Shown here piece by piece: positions 16,608-58,907 of a DNA stretch of 60,220 nucleotides. Location of the stretch: contig JALSTK010000088.1 of the NCBI GenBank assembly GCA_026983775.1, forward strand, positions 1 through 60,220, read 5' to 3'. The position numbers and the translations under genes are program-made. The notes beneath the pieces were generated by a model that saw only the letters and a program-made list of their open reading frames with translations, ran no database searches and was not told where the DNA came from. This DNA is from Calditrichia bacterium. Its GTDB lineage: Bacteria > Calditrichota > Calditrichia > Calditrichales > Calditrichaceae. The number at the start of each line of letters is the position of its first letter. The stretch's first letter is position 1.

Positions 16608-19022
16608 TTACCATGCTCTCCAATTAATAAAATGAATGGCCTGTCCGTCACTGTAAAACATGGCAGCGCCGAAATGATCGGTACGCATGGGATGGGCCCC
16701 GGCCTTTCTGAGACGGAGCATCGTCTGTTGCGAGGGATGAAAATATTTATTGTGGGCTCCCACCGAAACCACAGAAAAACGGGGTCTGACCCGTGCCAAA
16801 AACGGAAGGGATGTGGAAGTGATACTTCCATGATGGCCCACCTTGAGGTAATCGGATTGTAAAAAACGATTATAGCGCATTATCGCCGGCTCTGCACTTC
16901 GTTCCAGATCACCTGTAAGAAGAAATGAAGTGGCCTTGTATTGCACTTTAAGTACAATTGAACTATTGTTGATTTCCCGGCCGGTCTTTTCAACGGGATG
17001 TGTATATTTCCCGAAAGGATGAAGCACATAGACCCTGCAATCCCCGTCGGCATATAATTGTTGCCCGCGACGCAAAAAGCGAACCGGAATGTTCCGCTTG
17101 CGGGCAGTAACTCGCAGACGGTTAACCAGGGGGGTCGGTAGGGTGTAGGGGGATAAAGCCAATGTATCCACTTCTAAATTATTCAACAGGCTTAAAAATC
17201 CGCCGATGTGATCGCTGTGAACATGGGTTCCCACCAGATATTGAATGCGGTGAATTCCCAGGTATTTCAGAGTCGGCACCATATATCGCTTGCCGGCATC
17301 GAAATGATATTTATAGTCACCGCCGTCTACGACCATTACCCTGCCGTTGGGGAATTGGACGATAGCACCATCGCCCTGGCCAACATTGACCTGCAGTAAC
17401 CACAGGCGCCCTTTGGACCAAAGGTGATGGTTCCATACCGAAACAAAGAATACGGAAGCAACTATTACAGTAGTCAGCAAATTTCTTTTATTATTCAGAT
17501 TCACCAGAAGAAGAAGCAAAGCAATTAAAAAGATCAGACTTAAAAAAGAGGGCCGGGTCAACTCTATCTGCACCCAGGGCTGACGGGCGAAAAAGGCAAT
17601 TATTCTTGCAATCCATTTAAAATAATGTTCCATGGAAAACGCCAATCCCGCACATGCCCAGAATCCGATGCCGGACAACAGAAGAAAAAGGAAACAAAGC
17701 ATAACGAATACCGCCATCAGGGGAATAACCAGAAGATTAACCAGAACCGCGCCCACCTGTAGAGTACCGTAATAGCTCCAGGTGAGAGGAATCGTACCCA
17801 GGATCGCCGCCAGGGATACCAGGAAGGGTTGACGAAGATAGGAATTAAACCGCTCTTTCCAATGACTATGTCCCAAATCCATGGGCCACACTTTTTGAAG
17901 TTTGGGATAGCCATACAAGATACTGCCCACGGCAGCGAAAGAGAACTGAAAACCGGGCAGCAACAACTGCTGAGGTTCAACGATCAGTATCAGCAACCCG
18001 GCTACGCCGAGAGGATTTAGAGAACCTGCGCTGCGTTCGGTTAATTGAGCACTGAAGTAGATGGTGGCCATGAGCACGGCCCGAACCACCGGAGCTTTAA
18101 AATCAACCAGGGCCGCAAACAGCCAAAGAAAAAGTAGAGTAAGCAGGATCCGTTGCGGGTAGGTCAACGGTAAGAATCCCAGCAGCAGTAAAAGCATTGC
18201 CAGCAGGAAACCCACATGCAAACCGGAAATGGCCAAAATATGAATGACTCCGCTGCGCCTGAAATTATTCATTAAGCTCCGTTCCACATCCTGACGCTCA
18301 CCCAGGACCAGAGCCTTGAATACGGCCCGGGTCGGTTGGTGAAAATAATGGGTAATGGTCTGCCGGATCCCTTTCCTGAGCGGTACAAAAAATCTTCGTT
18401 GCCACAGCGGTCCCGCCTTGTCGCCCGTGATTTTTAAATTTTTCCGGTTATAATTGACGCGAAAATAAATGTGATTCAGTTGCAGATAGCGTCGATAATT
18501 AAATTCACCCGGATTTGAGGGTAACGGTGGATACAGTAAAGGAGCCTTGAATTGCACCCGGTCACCATAGTGCAGACGTAATCCCCGTTTACCGCGTATT
18601 AAGAGAATATGCCCCCTGGCCTCGTGCCATTGGGAATCTCTGTAAACGGCCTGACAGCGCATGATATATCGGTCCCGGCCCGATTCCCGGGGCATTTCGC
18701 CGGCGATCCAACCCCGTACTTTTCGAATCTTATACAGGGGCTCATTAATCAGGTGGTTGGGGGCAAAGAAGGTCAGGCGGGCTTCCAGCAAAGCGGCTGC
18801 GGAGAAGAAGACGCTGAACGCAATCAGAGCAGGGAAACAGGCCGGAAATTTTTTATGAGCGATTATAGTCAGAATAAACGAGAGCAGGGAAAATCCGGCG
18901 AAGACGGCAAACGAAATCCGATTCAGGGACTGCCAGCCGAAAGCAATTCCCGCGGCAAAGACCATAAAAAACCAGAAGGCCGGATTGGCCTCTATGCTTT
19001 TTTTAACAAGCGCCTTGCTCAC
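16608..19022 (-). CDS. comEC: DNA internalization competence protein ComEC/Rec2
   Basis: An 804-residue protein with the full three-part architecture. An N-terminal soluble insertion domain (GWIAGEMP, RVQFKAPLL) follows two to three membrane helices. The Competence domain is polytopic and includes HILAISGLHVGFLLA and the polytopic stretch with LLLLLGFLPLTYP. A C-terminal metallo-beta-lactamase-like domain begins LLQVNVGQGDGAIV and has the motif THVHSDHIGG. ComEC forms the inner-membrane channel for single-stranded DNA during natural transformation. Other competence genes are not in the window. It ends 66 bases before rnhB. Confidence 0.95.
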   Translation of the reverse strand: MSKALVKKSIEANPAFWFFMVFAAGIAFGWQSLNRISFAVFAGFSLLSFILTIIAHKKFPACFPALIAFSVFFSAAALLEARLTFFAPNHLINEPLYKIRKVRGWIAGEMPRESGRDRYIMRCQAVYRDSQWHEARGHILLIRGKRGLRLHYGDRVQFKAPLLYPPLPSNPGEFNYRRYLQLNHIYFRVNYNRKNLKITGDKAGPLWQRRFFVPLRKGIRQTITHYFHQPTRAVFKALVLGERQDVERSLMNNFRRSGVIHILAISGLHVGFLLAMLLLLLGFLPLTYPQRILLTLLFLWLFAALVDFKAPVVRAVLMATIYFSAQLTERSAGSLNPLGVAGLLILIVEPQQLLLPGFQFSFAAVGSILYGYPKLQKVWPMDLGHSHWKERFNSYLRQPFLVSLAAILGTIPLTWSYYGTLQVGAVLVNLLVIPLMAVFVMLCFLFLLLSGIGFWACAGLAFSMEHYFKWIARIIAFFARQPWVQIELTRPSFLSLIFLIALLLLLVNLNNKRNLLTTVIVASVFFVSVWNHHLWSKGRLWLLQVNVGQGDGAIVQFPNGRVMVVDGGDYKYHFDAGKRYMVPTLKYLGIHRIQYLVGTHVHSDHIGGFLSLLNNLEVDTLALSPYTLPTPLVNRLRVTARKRNIPVRFLRRGQQLYADGDCRVYVLHPFGKYTHPVEKTGREINNSSIVLKVQYKATSFLLTGDLERSAEPAIMRYNRFLQSDYLKVGHHGSITSTSLPFLARVRPRFSVVSVGAHNKYFHPSQQTMLRLRKAGAHPMRTDHFGAAMFYSDGQAIHFINWRAW

Positions 19023-54672: not shown

Positions 54673-55644
54673 GTGAAATATTGTCTTTTTATAATTTTCA
54701 TTTTTGTTGTTTCTGTTTCCGGTCAGAAAGAATCCGCGGCTCAACCGGGCGGTAAATTGCATCGGATTGAAGCTCAAATGCAAACGCATCCCGATAGTCT
54801 CGAATTATATGAAGAATATTGCGAACTTAGTTTAAAAGGGAAAAAAACATTGGATGAACTGTATGCCTTTGATTCCGAATTAAATACGATATTTGCAAAA
54901 ATGAAGGATACGATTCGGGACACAATCGCAATGTATGAAACTCAGATCCGAATATGTTTTAAATACAGCCGGTTTCTGTTTGCTAAAGCGGATACATTAA
55001 TCAAAGCCCTTCATACTACACTCAACAAGGAAGAACTTGTAAAGCTTTATAAGATTAATTTTGCATACTATAAAAAAATAACGGACAAATCTTATCAGTT
55101 ATGCAGAAAACTCACCCATGTTCATACTGATTCTTCTGTCTATTCCTGGTGTCAATCGATTATTCAATATAAAAAGTACCGGACCTTTATGGAAAATTTG
55201 AAGAAAAATCCGGCACCCCTTTTCCATGCGGTTGATATAAACGGGCGAACCGTTTCTCTCGATATGTTCCGGGGACGTTTTGTACTTATTCATTTTTGGA
55301 GTATGTATAGTCAACCCTCTGTGTTGGAATTAAATGATTTGAAAAAAATATCTATTACCTATTCAAAGCAGGATCTGGCCGTAATTAGTATTAACGGTGA
55401 TAAACTGAACAATGCCATTGATGAAAAGATACTTCATAATTTTATCAATGAAATGAATCTGAACTGGCATCATATTGCCGACGGGAATAAGCGCAAAATT
55501 TTTAATCTTTACTTTGTACGAAATTATCCGACTCTCTATCTGATTAACAGAGCGGGATTTATTATCTATAGTGAAAATGAATTGCGGGGAAAGAGGCTTT
55601 TTTCTACTTTCTCAAAACTTGCCATAAGGCAAAGTAAGCATTAG
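54673..55644 (+). CDS. Exported thioredoxin-like (AhpC/TSA-fold) protein lacking CxxC
   Basis: A 323-residue protein starting at GTG, three bases after the TPR gene stop. A signal peptide (CLFIIFIFVVSVSG) leads to about 150 residues of unrecognised helical sequence, then a thioredoxin-fold domain from about residue 180. The usual WCxxC site is replaced by SMYSQPSVLEL: the expected cysteines are Ser213 and Ser216. The cis-Pro motif is kept as NYPTLYLIN near residue 288. The fold is therefore probably intact but without thiol-disulfide activity. This may be a binding or structural partner of the TPR protein. Confidence 0.8.
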   Translation: MKYCLFIIFIFVVSVSGQKESAAQPGGKLHRIEAQMQTHPDSLELYEEYCELSLKGKKTLDELYAFDSELNTIFAKMKDTIRDTIAMYETQIRICFKYSRFLFAKADTLIKALHTTLNKEELVKLYKINFAYYKKITDKSYQLCRKLTHVHTDSSVYSWCQSIIQYKKYRTFMENLKKNPAPLFHAVDINGRTVSLDMFRGRFVLIHFWSMYSQPSVLELNDLKKISITYSKQDLAVISINGDKLNNAIDEKILHNFINEMNLNWHHIADGNKRKIFNLYFVRNYPTLYLINRAGFIIYSENELRGKRLFSTFSKLAIRQSKH

Positions 55645-55663: not shown

Positions 55664-55813
55664 TCATAAAAATGGATAACCCATACAGATCGACATAGAA
55701 CCAATAAATTTATAGCCATTCCCATAATATTCAGGATTTTTTGTACTCGGTGTTGTTCCGGATAAGGCTTTACCAAAGTCTTCAATATGATATTTTTTCC
55801 ATCCTTCCATCAT
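55664..55813 (-). pseudogene. hsdS: N-terminal fragment of a type I restriction specificity (HsdS) gene
   Basis: Translating the minus strand from ATG 55813 gives 49 codons ending in TGA at 55664-55666. The start reads MEGWKKYHIEDFGKALSGTT followed by PSTKNPEYYGNGYKFIG, the standard opening of an HsdS target-recognition domain (WKxxxLGDxxxxxxGxTPSTKNPEYY). After about residue 39 the resemblance stops and a stop codon follows, so more than 350 residues of a normal HsdS are missing. No hsdM or hsdR is in the window. It is a remnant, 21 bases from the hairpin bordering the GIY-YIG module. Confidence 0.72.
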
Positions 55814-55833
55814 ACACCCAATTTTATTAAACC

Positions 55834-55859
55834 GCTGCCTGAGCGGAGTCGAAGGCAGC
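55834..55859. repeat. Hairpin repeat, left copy
   Basis: A perfect 7-bp stem, GCTGCCT with AGGCAGC, closes the 12-base loop GAGCGGAGTCGA. The loop is shared with the right copy (one A/G difference) whereas the stem is different. Inside the loop CGG and TCG can pair with a G-T wobble where the right copy has a Watson-Crick A-T pair. Confidence 0.85.
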
Positions 55860-55874
55860 GGAGTCGAAGGCAGC
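55845..55874 (+). repeat. Perfect 15-bp tandem duplication
   Basis: The unit GGAGTCGAAGGCAGC occurs twice with no spacer (55845-55859 and 55860-55874). It copies half of the left hairpin: part of the loop plus the 3' arm. It lies 8 bases from the stop codon of the GIY-YIG gene. Confidence 0.95.
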
Positions 55875-55882
55875 GTCTATTT

Positions 55883-56191
55883 TCATTCATTTTCATCCTT
55901 TTTAAAATTTTTATAGTGCGTTTCATTCATACATTCCGCCAATTTATGCAATTCATAAGGCGTCCCGTTTATCAGTGCTTCTTTCTTTTTTCTGCTCCAA
56001 CCCTGTACTTGTTTTTCTCTGTAAAAAGCTTCATCTATTCTGCTATATTCTTCAAAATAAACCAACTTAACAGGCAAACATTTTTTCGTATGGTTCGCTC
56101 CTTTGCCTGCCTGATGTTGAGCAAGCCGTCTTTCCAGGTCTTTAGTACTGCTGGTGTAATAGCTACCGTCGGCACACTCCAATATGTACAT
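55883..56191 (-). CDS. GIY-YIG endonuclease, UPF0213-like
   Basis: A 102-residue protein starting at ATG 56191 (AAAGGA five bases upstream). The GIY-YIG core is visible as MYILECADGSYYTSSTKDLERRL, with the arginine after the second motif and the metal-binding glutamate in AFYREKQVQGW. The conserved Gly of the YIG-equivalent (YTG) is Ser here, which may weaken activity. The C-terminal WSRKKKEALING is typical of the subfamily. Such nucleases introduce single-strand or double-strand breaks. The gene is framed by the hairpin repeats described separately. Confidence 0.9.
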   Translation of the reverse strand: MYILECADGSYYTSSTKDLERRLAQHQAGKGANHTKKCLPVKLVYFEEYSRIDEAFYREKQVQGWSRKKKEALINGTPYELHKLAECMNETHYKNFKKDENE

Positions 56192-56220
56192 ATATCCTTT
56201 TATATTTTCCGACCTAACGA

Positions 56221-56242
56221 GGGCTGAGCGAAGTCGAAGCCC
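56221..56242. repeat. Hairpin repeat, right copy
   Basis: A 5-bp stem, GGGCT with AGCCC, closes the loop GAGCGAAGTCGA. The loop matches the left copy at 11 of 12 positions in the same orientation, but the arms differ in sequence and length. It lies between the GIY-YIG start and the stop of the M16 peptidase gene. Confidence 0.85.
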
Positions 56243-56250
56243 CGTTCATC

Positions 56251-57621
56251 TTAACGAAGACGCTTGCCCCGCGTATCAAAAACCCGCACTTCAAATTCAC
56301 GGCCCAGGTCCTTTTCCACCTGACCGGCATCGGTAGTAACCACGATCAGCATACGATCGGGATCCAGATATTTTGCGGCTACCCGCAAAATATCATCGGC
56401 CGTAATCGCGTTGATCCTATTTCGAAAGGTCTGGTAATAGTCATCCGGCAAACGGGAAAGAACTATATTGGCCAGACCCAGAGCTACCTGTTCCGCGGTT
56501 TCGAAGGCAATGGGAAAAACACCGATCAACTGCCCCCGGGCATTTTCCAGCTCTTCTTCCCGAACCTTTTCCGTCCTGATCTTTCGAATTTCTTGCAACG
56601 TTTCCTGAATAGCCTGCACCGTGTTTTCGGTATGAACCGCAGCGGAAATAAAAAACGGACCGCGACCCGGACGGTAAGAAAAGACCGAATGTGCCCCATA
56701 AGTAAAACCGTGTTTTTCACGCAGATTCATATTGATGCGCGACAGGAAATATCCTCCCAAAATTTCATTGAGTAAAGTAACGGCATAATAGTCCGGATTA
56801 TCCCGTTCAATGCCGAGATGCCCGATACGCAACTCGGCCTGTGCCGAACCCGGTTTGTGCACCAGCGCCACGGAAGTTTTCTGCGGCTGATCAAAAGCAG
56901 CGCTCCCCACTTCCGGTGCGCTACCGGTTTTCCACCGACTAAATCCGGCCTCTACAATATCCCTGGCCTTTTGCTCTGTAATATCACCGACCAGAATCAA
57001 CACGGCATTGCCCGCCCTGAGATAGCGATCGGAATAACGACGAACATCATCGCGTGTAATCTTCTTAAGGGAAGGCTCCGTGCCTTCTATGGGCAGTCCG
57101 TAACGATGATCCCCATAAAGTAAATTCGTAAAACGTTCACTGGCTACTTTACCCGGATTATCCACGGAACGCATGCGTTCCACTAAAATTTCATCCCTGA
57201 CCCGCTCAAACTCATCCTGTGGGAAAGAAGCGTACAGAGCCATATCGGCAAACACCTCCATGGCCCGATCCAGATGACGGGAAATCACATTCATCTCCAG
57301 ATAGAGCGCATTCCAATCGCAGTGACTGGCATAATGAGCGCCCAGGTATTCCAGCTCGGCGGCAATGTCCACACTGGAGCGCTTTGTCGTCCCTTCGGTT
57401 AATAATTCCGCGGTAAGATAGGCCGTGCCCTCTTTACCGGCAGGGTCCAAAAGAGCCGAACCCGGAAAGCACAGGGTGGCATTAACTAGGGGTAGCTGGT
57501 CTTCGCCGGTAACCAAAACTTTTAAACCGTTAGTCGATTCAAAGCGCGTAAATTGCGGGAAATTAAAAGTTCTGGGTGCACCTGCCGGCGGTATCCGACT
57601 GCGGTCTATGTTAGCTGGCAT
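56251..57621 (-). CDS. M16-family peptidase-like protein, non-catalytic partner
   Basis: A 456-residue protein with the M16 fold: KVLVTGEDQLPLVNATLCFPG at the N-terminus and GTAYLTAELLTEGT, where catalytic members have HxxEH. That motif is missing, so this should be the inactive subunit. The C-terminal half has VKKITRDDVRRYSDRYL-like and RINMNLREKHGFTYGAHSVF, which in M16 pairs form the RY substrate-clamp region. It lies 17 bases after the catalytic partner gene. The pair probably forms a heterodimer that degrades peptides in the periplasm or cytoplasm; no signal peptide is visible. Confidence 0.9.
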   Translation of the reverse strand: MPANIDRSRIPPAGAPRTFNFPQFTRFESTNGLKVLVTGEDQLPLVNATLCFPGSALLDPAGKEGTAYLTAELLTEGTTKRSSVDIAAELEYLGAHYASHCDWNALYLEMNVISRHLDRAMEVFADMALYASFPQDEFERVRDEILVERMRSVDNPGKVASERFTNLLYGDHRYGLPIEGTEPSLKKITRDDVRRYSDRYLRAGNAVLILVGDITEQKARDIVEAGFSRWKTGSAPEVGSAAFDQPQKTSVALVHKPGSAQAELRIGHLGIERDNPDYYAVTLLNEILGGYFLSRINMNLREKHGFTYGAHSVFSYRPGRGPFFISAAVHTENTVQAIQETLQEIRKIRTEKVREEELENARGQLIGVFPIAFETAEQVALGLANIVLSRLPDDYYQTFRNRINAITADDILRVAAKYLDPDRMLIVVTTDAGQVEKDLGREFEVRVFDTRGKRLR

Positions 57622-57638
57622 CTTTTTAATAACCTCTG

Positions 57639-58907
57639 TTAGGGTTTGGTAGGTAAAAAAGTAACCACGGCCCGGTTCTTACTTTGCAAGTACTCGGCAG
57701 CTACTTGGCGCACCTCATCTCTACTGATGGCTTTGTAGCGGTCGATTTCCGTGTTAATTAACTGCGGTTTATTAAAATACATATTGTACATATTCAGATA
57801 ATCGGCGCGGGCACTCATGGTCTCCAGCTCCCGTAATTTACGGGATTCAATCTGATTCTTTACGCGCTGCAATTCCTCTTCGGCCATGGGTTCGGAAATC
57901 AAAAGCTCTATTTCTTCCTGCAAAGCCTGCTCCGCTTTTTCCACCGATATACCCGGACGGGGAGTCAACATAAGGATCAGCAGAGAAGTCTCTTTCAAAG
58001 GCAATAAAATAGCCTGGGCATCCTGGGCAATCTGCTGGCGGTGAATAAGGGATTGATAGAGCCGGGCGCTTTTTCCCGAAGATAAAATGTCGGTAATCAG
58101 GTCGGCCGTATACGCCTGTTTCGTACCCAAACCCGGGATATGGTAGCCCATATAAAGACGTGGTAACTGAACATGATCTTTGACAAGGGTCCGTTTTTCA
58201 CCCCGGTTGTAGTCGGCAAACGGTTTGTTAAATGCGGGCAACGGCTCCCCGGGTTCTATTTCGGCAAAGTATTTTTCAATCAGGCCCCGAATGGTTTCCG
58301 GATCAAAATCACCGGCCACTACCAACGAGGCATTATTCGGACAGTAGTAGGTTTTAAAGAATCGGCGCACCTCTTCCATGCTGATCGTTTCCAGATCTTC
58401 CATATAACCGATAACCGGCCAGTGATAGGGATAATCCACGGCATAGGATAAACCCAGCAACTTCTCCAGCCAGAGACCATAGGGCATATTATCCATATGC
58501 TGGCGGCGTTCGTTCTTAACCACTTCCAGTTGGTTATCCAGTTTTTTCTGATCCAGGGCGGGCAAAAACCAACCCATACGGTCCGCTTCCAGCCACAAAC
58601 CCATTTCCAGATAGTGCGACGGCAGGGTTTCAAAATAATTAGTACGATCAAAAAAGGTCGAGCCGTTCAGGGTTCCACCTACGCTCTGGATCAGCTTAAA
58701 ATGCAAATCAGCCGCAATATGAGCACTTCCCTGGAACATCATGTGTTCGAAAAGATGGGCAAAACCGGTCTTGCCCGGTCGTTCGTTTTTGGAACCCACC
58801 CCGTACCAGATATTCACGGCCACAATGGGTATGCGGTGATCTTCATGAACAATAACGCGCAGACCGTTATCTAAGGTAAATTGTGTAAATTGAATATTCA
58901 GAGCCAT
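57639..58907 (-). CDS. M16-family zinc metallopeptidase, catalytic subunit
   Basis: A 422-residue protein. The zinc motif is HLFEH at residues 51-55 (FAHLFEHMMFQGS), with the third ligand Glu near residue 133 in EVVKNERRQHMDN. NGSTFFDRTNYFETLP and the later PGISVEKAEQALQEE are typical. No signal peptide is seen. It is the first gene of an M16 pair on the minus strand, the second being the inactive partner. Peptides shorter than about 70 residues are the usual substrates. Confidence 0.94.
   Translation of the reverse strand: MALNIQFTQFTLDNGLRVIVHEDHRIPIVAVNIWYGVGSKNERPGKTGFAHLFEHMMFQGSAHIAADLHFKLIQSVGGTLNGSTFFDRTNYFETLPSHYLEMGLWLEADRMGWFLPALDQKKLDNQLEVVKNERRQHMDNMPYGLWLEKLLGLSYAVDYPYHWPVIGYMEDLETISMEEVRRFFKTYYCPNNASLVVAGDFDPETIRGLIEKYFAEIEPGEPLPAFNKPFADYNRGEKRTLVKDHVQLPRLYMGYHIPGLGTKQAYTADLITDILSSGKSARLYQSLIHRQQIAQDAQAILLPLKETSLLILMLTPRPGISVEKAEQALQEEIELLISEPMAEEELQRVKNQIESRKLRELETMSARADYLNMYNMYFNKPQLINTEIDRYKAISRDEVRQVAAEYLQSKNRAVVTFLPTKP

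Follow-up and report, generated by a model that had tools for sequence, protein, structure and literature searches.

A small GIY-YIG endonuclease gene and its candidate partner hairpins: a probably decayed module copy in the genome of a Calditrichia bacterium

The locus and its present state

The window (the whole stretch of DNA that was analysed, 60,220 nucleotides from a Calditrichia bacterium) carries a small GIY-YIG endonuclease gene located between two hairpins of the same orientation, and the interval is bounded by two host genes (Table 1). The catalytic domain is present, with a match to PF01541 at E=1.5e-15 and 57.7 bits against a cut-off of 22.6. A first-pass annotation of the sequence had described two hairpins on either side of the gene that share a core in equal orientation and have differing, self-complementary arms; both are found where it placed them, with arms of 7 bp (GCTGCCT/AGGCAGC, or 9 bp counting CC/GG) and 5 bp. 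A tandem duplication behind hairpin 1 creates a partial third core at 55856-55867. Core matches with at most one mismatch number three in the window, where 0.31 are expected, and none of 100 shuffled sequences reaches three. In the 4,028,002 bases of the genome there are two exact copies of the core GAGCGRAGTCGA, both at the GIY-YIG gene, and none of its reversed control; type A hairpins are not amplified in this genome. A repeat at +15 bp is also seen at four loci of relatives (L011, L027, L052, L057), but as a general signature of the hairpins it was rejected: only 5 of 280 elements have such a half-hairpin duplication, and it was therefore not used as evidence.

Table 1. Features at and around the GIY-YIG gene of the window
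Feature	Position	Strand	Remarks
AhpC/TSA-thioredoxin-like protein	54673..55644	+	flanking host gene
hsdS relic (type I restriction specificity subunit)	55664..55813	-	first 49 codons, MMEGWKKYHIEDFGKALSGTTPSTKNPEYYGNGYKFIGSMSICMGYPFL
Hairpin 1, type A	55832..55861	+	arms CCGCTGCCT/AGGCAGCGG, core GAGCGGAGTCGA at 55841-55852
15-bp tandem duplication	55844..55873	+	55844-55858 = 55859-55873, after hairpin 1
GIY-YIG endonuclease gene, small single-domain	55883..56191	-	102 aa, type A tail LHKLAECMNETHYKN
Hairpin 2, type A, weak	56217..56246	+	arms GGGCT/AGCCC (5 bp), core GAGCGAAGTCGA at 56226-56237
M16 peptidase, second of conserved pair (56251-58907)	56251..57621	-	flanking host gene

The protein of the window retains the catalytic-motif residues Y2, Y12, R22, H26 and E59, and the motif is intact in relatives, but at residue 14 the invariant glycine of YIG is replaced by serine (YTG to YTS). 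Glycine stands there in all relatives compared, and this is the sole position of more than 90% conservation among them at which the window protein departs. The upstream start that is usual in the family, MKGY, reads IKGY in the window and is lost as a start. Downstream of the gene by 73 bp, on the same strand, lies the relic of hsdS, which matches Methylase_S weakly (E=0.014, the leading residues of the query being approximate) and matches the HsdS-like sequence downstream of the GIY-YIG gene at four other loci (L055, L073, L061, L081) with E between 3.5e-9 and 9e-4. Taken together, the glycine-to-serine change, the lost start, the weakness of hairpin 2 and the remnant of hsdS indicate that the window copy is probably decayed; neither the relic nor this degenerate look was part of the first-pass account of the module.

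The M16 pair is conserved in the relatives examined, and no GIY-YIG gene follows it there. An exact empty site was not found, because the genome set includes no genome of the same genus, and the flanks of the relatives that share the M16 pair are too diverged to align; movement of the module is therefore judged from synteny only. Cargo of a phage or plasmid was considered and rejected, as plasmids have no close homolog (1e-20), phages have only homologs of 38-45% identity, and viral contigs have none.

Association and structure of the hairpins in relatives

A protein search of genome contigs yielded 80 homolog loci, with 65-87% identity, distributed over at least eight phyla (Bacteroidota, Calditrichota, Ignavibacteriota, Cyanobacteriota, Thermodesulfobacteriota, Acidobacteriota, Planctomycetota and others), a pattern that fits and suggests horizontal spread of the module. 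A type A hairpin with the general core GAGCGNAGYCGA lies within 600 bp of the gene at 68 of these loci, and the exact core lies close to many of the genes, in mixed orientation relative to them. The other 12 loci comprise nine proteins with another tail, two loci (L034, L053) where the gene coincides with a contig end or masking, and one gene with a broken frame (L068). A looser search, which allowed three core mismatches and required arms of 4 bp or more, counted 262 hairpins in the 99.7 kb within 500 bp of the genes versus 51 in the other 333 kb. Among 98 genomes, exact cores had a median of five per genome with a homolog (E<1e-20) versus zero without (Mann-Whitney p=2e-4, kinship ignored). 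The genomes of relatives thus do contain the core, and GIY-YIG genes of the subfamily seldom lack it, which were the two points on which the first-pass annotation had staked the link between gene and hairpins.

For the comparison of arms, 67 elements from as many loci were aligned, and those of the window were left out. Arm cells are paired in 90.9% of cases versus 64.1% after shuffling and at most 47% in slid controls, and double changes in the arms number 133 versus 39.8 in shuffles. The core, 12 nt long, forms an unpaired loop when folded and is conserved more than the arms; among 242 elements its position 6 is G in 138, A in 63, T in 35 and C in 6. Pairing inside the core was rejected on the loop fold and the four bases taken at position 6; the first-pass suggestion that the one core difference keeps a pair (A-T to G-T) is not supported, nor is structural covariation within the core. 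The G at position -7 is kept in 235 of 242 elements, and where the -7/+7 pair is broken it is still there in 98 of 105; since this 5' G is retained independently of pairing, one foot of the hairpin is conserved as sequence and the other arm positions mainly as structure.

A covariance model (R1) was built from the 67-element alignment, from which the window sequences were excluded, and was run over the whole genome of the window. Hairpin 1 ranks first with 45.6 bits and hairpin 2, which has two broken pairs, ranks second with 30.4 bits. The next matches are an identical pair of 24.1 bits, inverted and 2.4 kb apart (G000:C31:15817-15836 on the plus strand and 18197-18216 on the minus strand). 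Chance juxtaposition of a nuclease gene and two similar hairpins, to which the presence of only two copies in the window's genome might point, is ruled out for practical purposes by the 68 of 80 loci, the difference in hairpin density and the ranking of the window copies by the model. Because the association recurs at those loci, the arms covary and the window hairpins are ranked highest by a model built without them, the link is not attributed to chance, and gene and hairpins are very probably cognate partners.

The family is represented in a different state in a relative from the same family of bacteria (G005; 4,978,541 bases in one contig). Model matches there number at least 121 and are dispersed, most of them away from the gene, although 25 elements surround the GIY-YIG gene of that genome. 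The elements alternate in inverted pairs and arrays with a period of 91-92 bp, and 20 regions that were sampled contain 122 cores, 95 of them outside open reading frames of at least 110 aa. The type A hairpins of G005 are dispersed, mainly intergenic and BIME-like, whereas those of the window's genome are not. The first-pass reading of REP-like elements with a GIY-YIG partner is well supported for the family by co-location, covariation of the arms, the coupling of tail and core described below and the BIME-like copies of G005; amplification in the window's genome, which has two copies, both at the gene, is not supported. In another genome (G042, 98% complete), 37 model matches (e.g., L207-L209) were found without a close GIY-YIG homolog, and the GIY-YIG genes that it has are without hairpins alongside. 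Elements can thus exist without the gene, and those of G042 may be orphans or may have another driver.

These distributions bear on two other explanations. If the hairpins acted at the level of RNA, terminating or attenuating transcription of the GIY-YIG gene, instead of being DNA targets, the folding of the sequences as hairpins near gene ends would be accounted for, but not their mixed orientation relative to the gene, the many copies of G005 away from it, or a loop more conserved than the arms. Rfam has no family that comes near its threshold, and such a role is considered highly improbable. It is just as improbable that a RAYT (Y1_Tnp) transposase moves the hairpins as ordinary REP elements, with the GIY-YIG gene as a passenger. 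Y1_Tnp genes are present in seven of eight genomes tested, including that of the window, where the gene is flanked by two pairs of another hairpin type (type C). However, a genome that is 100% complete and has 39 exact cores (G056) has no Y1_Tnp match; the three Y1_Tnp genes of G005 have no type A hairpins nearby despite the abundance of elements in that genome; the core tracks the tail of the GIY-YIG protein; and the Y1_Tnp gene of the window's genome has repeats of its own with other sequence. On the first two of these grounds, ordinary RAYT-driven REP elements were mostly rejected. The latter Y1_Tnp (RAYT-like) gene (G000:C117:34997-36564, L196) lies between two identical inverted type C pairs, each within a 160-bp repeat, 1479 bp apart, and is accompanied by other short repeats of its own.

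Coupling of the C-terminal tail to the loop core

Proteins of the family differ in the tail that follows the catalytic domain, and the tail "AECxNETH" is paired with the core GAGCGNAGYCGA, whereas the tail "AYRD" is paired with the 11-nt core GAGGNNCTCGA. Tail and core agree at 76 of 76 loci (67/0 versus 0/9; Fisher 7e-12, ancestry ignored). The case for coupling depends mostly on one weakly resolved tree, made from the N-terminal domain alone. Tail and core each change six times in it, on shared branches whose support is weak; the well-supported branches contain only one independent pair, and the AU test does not reject the AYRD tails having arisen once (p=0.065). Further pairs come from genomes of relatives: AYRD with GAGGTACTCGA (L096), LAKKPRFRK with a hairpin of the form GAGTAG-inner hairpin-CGTATCGA (L173), LSRNYTQ with core GAGCTTGTCGA (L097), LAKRYN with core GAGCNNNGTCGA (L166) and, in a protein whose domain is only 43% identical, the tail CxNESHYKN with an A-like core GAGCGNAGACGA (L103). 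The window's genome has a second homolog on contig 161 (G000:C161:25094-25354, L004:1501-1761), 77% identical and ending in LAKKIFRKE, which is flanked by another hairpin type (type C), GAGT...inner hairpin...TATCGA; thus, two enzymes and two hairpin types coexist in one genome. The hairpins of the contig 161 homolog include a direct duplication of 108 bp, and another pair lies about 2 kb off.

That the hairpins are found at nearly all genes of the family and that their core changes together with the enzyme tail suggest that the enzyme recognises the hairpins and that the pair spreads jointly. The tail, which AlphaFold models at low confidence after residue 85, as would be expected of a segment that folds on binding, may be a swappable reading head, the motifs of which would set the loop core (AECxNETH for GAGCGNAGYCGA, AYRD for GAGGNNCTCGA, LAKKxFxKE-like for GAGTAG-inner hairpin-CGTATCGA, LSRNYTQ for GAGCTTGTCGA and LAKRYN for GAGCNNNGTCGA). 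Such enzyme/hairpin pairs could then explain several large unexplained REP-like families across phyla, including invaders between hsdM and hsdS. This extension is offered tentatively, at somewhat less than even odds.

The frames of GIY-YIG genes often read into adjoining repeats, which gives rise to tails such as FGSAQPP and RSLSEVE (L020, L023, L024, L055, L073, L090 and others).

Restriction genes, known systems and a proposed mechanism

HsdM and/or HsdS are encoded within 1.2 kb at 24 of the 80 loci, nearly always in the order HsdM, GIY-YIG gene, HsdS along one strand (L025, with HsdM on the opposite strand, is an exception), and the 125 nearest neighbours of the homologs include 19 matches to N6_Mtase and 17 to Methylase_S. 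From the hsdS relic and this hsdM-GIY-hsdS order in relatives, we infer that the window module was derived from such a locus. These neighbours and the relic would also suit an accessory function of the GIY-YIG protein in type I restriction-modification loci, with the hairpins only aiding exchange of hsdS or control of the operon, but neighbours at most loci are unrelated, at least 121 elements are dispersed in G005 with 25 around its gene, and neither PADLOC nor PHROGs gave a match to a known defence protein. An accessory function is therefore judged unlikely, though less so than a role in RNA or movement by RAYT.

The reading preferred here, to which we assign a probability of about 0.68, is that the copy in the window, immobile and probably decayed, belongs to a widespread two-part module composed of a small GIY-YIG endonuclease and the hairpins that it recognises. 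The hairpin would be read as single-stranded DNA, extruded during replication, uptake or repair; the enzyme would recognise the loop core, via its C-terminal tail, together with the fixed G of the 5' foot, and would nick at the hairpin. Repair or recombination at the nick might then copy the gene with its flanking sites in a homing-like manner or, alternatively, copy the hairpins alone in the manner of REP/BIME elements, and the copies would land outside genes, in many cases between hsdM and hsdS.

By analogy, the module best fits a system that works like REP elements with a GIY-YIG enzyme, or like the Ssn/NTS pair. With REP/BIME elements and their RAYT enzymes (TnpA-REP, PF01797) it has in common intergenic hairpins, a conserved foot, inverted pairs and arrays, an enzyme gene flanked by the elements and, in some genomes, many copies; it differs in that the enzyme is a GIY-YIG nuclease and not a Y1 HUH transposase, that the conserved word is in the loop, and that type A hairpins occur without Y1_Tnp in G056 and are absent around the Y1_Tnp genes of G005. 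GIY-YIG homing endonucleases (I-TevI and free-standing phage enzymes) share the catalytic domain, a gene, mobile or here putatively so, flanked by its targets and a modular recognition region behind the domain, but the present proteins have no intron, no long linker and no separate DNA-binding domain, their targets would be many short hairpins instead of one long double-stranded site, and phage and viral collections yielded no close homolog of them. The nearest solved structures by sequence are PDB 1zg2 (BH0048; E=4.3e-16) and 1ywl (EF2693; E=7e-10), of which 1zg2 is also the nearest fold, with 42% identity; both are UPF0213/YhbQ-like proteins entered as hypothetical, for which we know of no hairpin partner.

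Ssn of Neisseria, said to have been described with its NTS repeats by Chenal et al. in Nat Commun in 2025, reportedly represents a family of site-specific single-strand GIY-YIG nucleases, with homologs of different specificities in many bacteria and NTS repeats also around important genes. The present proteins resemble Ssn in being small and single-domain and in having a cognate short sequence associated with the gene (here at 68 of 80 loci), and the number of target copies per genome, a feature of the Ssn type, is 2 in the window's genome and at least 121 in G005. The Ssn family of single-strand-specific GIY-YIG nucleases is the closest known kind, of which the window module may be a member. 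The novelty suggested in the first-pass annotation is accordingly doubtful, as Ssn nucleases with genomic repeat targets have reportedly been described already. To our knowledge, the Ssn work features neither covarying arms nor a tail-core code, and neither BIME-like arrays nor a place between hsdM and hsdS; novelty is likeliest in the tail-core code and the insertion at hsd loci. A literature search, with many journals outside its coverage, found neither the letters of the repeats nor a paper on GIY-YIG proteins with such repeats.

Many bacterial genomes carry short hairpin repeats without a known driver. Here, a dozen residues of the partner nuclease allow the class of repeat to be predicted, and small proteins and oligonucleotides therefore suffice for direct tests of the driver, the specificity code and the mode of spread. 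Should the loop be read by the tail, these enzymes would be natural, exchangeable, site-specific single-strand nucleases, and their frequent position between hsdM and hsdS suggests a route for the exchange of restriction specificity genes.

Other GIY-YIG genes also lie near repeats. In G005, another small one (G005:C1:3698462-3698662, L178) has eight copies of CCCGT-AGGGATCCTGCGGAA-ACGGG nearby at a spacing of about 113 bp, and more distant GIY-YIG genes at three loci (L183, L188, L190) are near hairpins resembling ATTCT-GAACGCAGTGA-AGAAT, of which L190 has ten.
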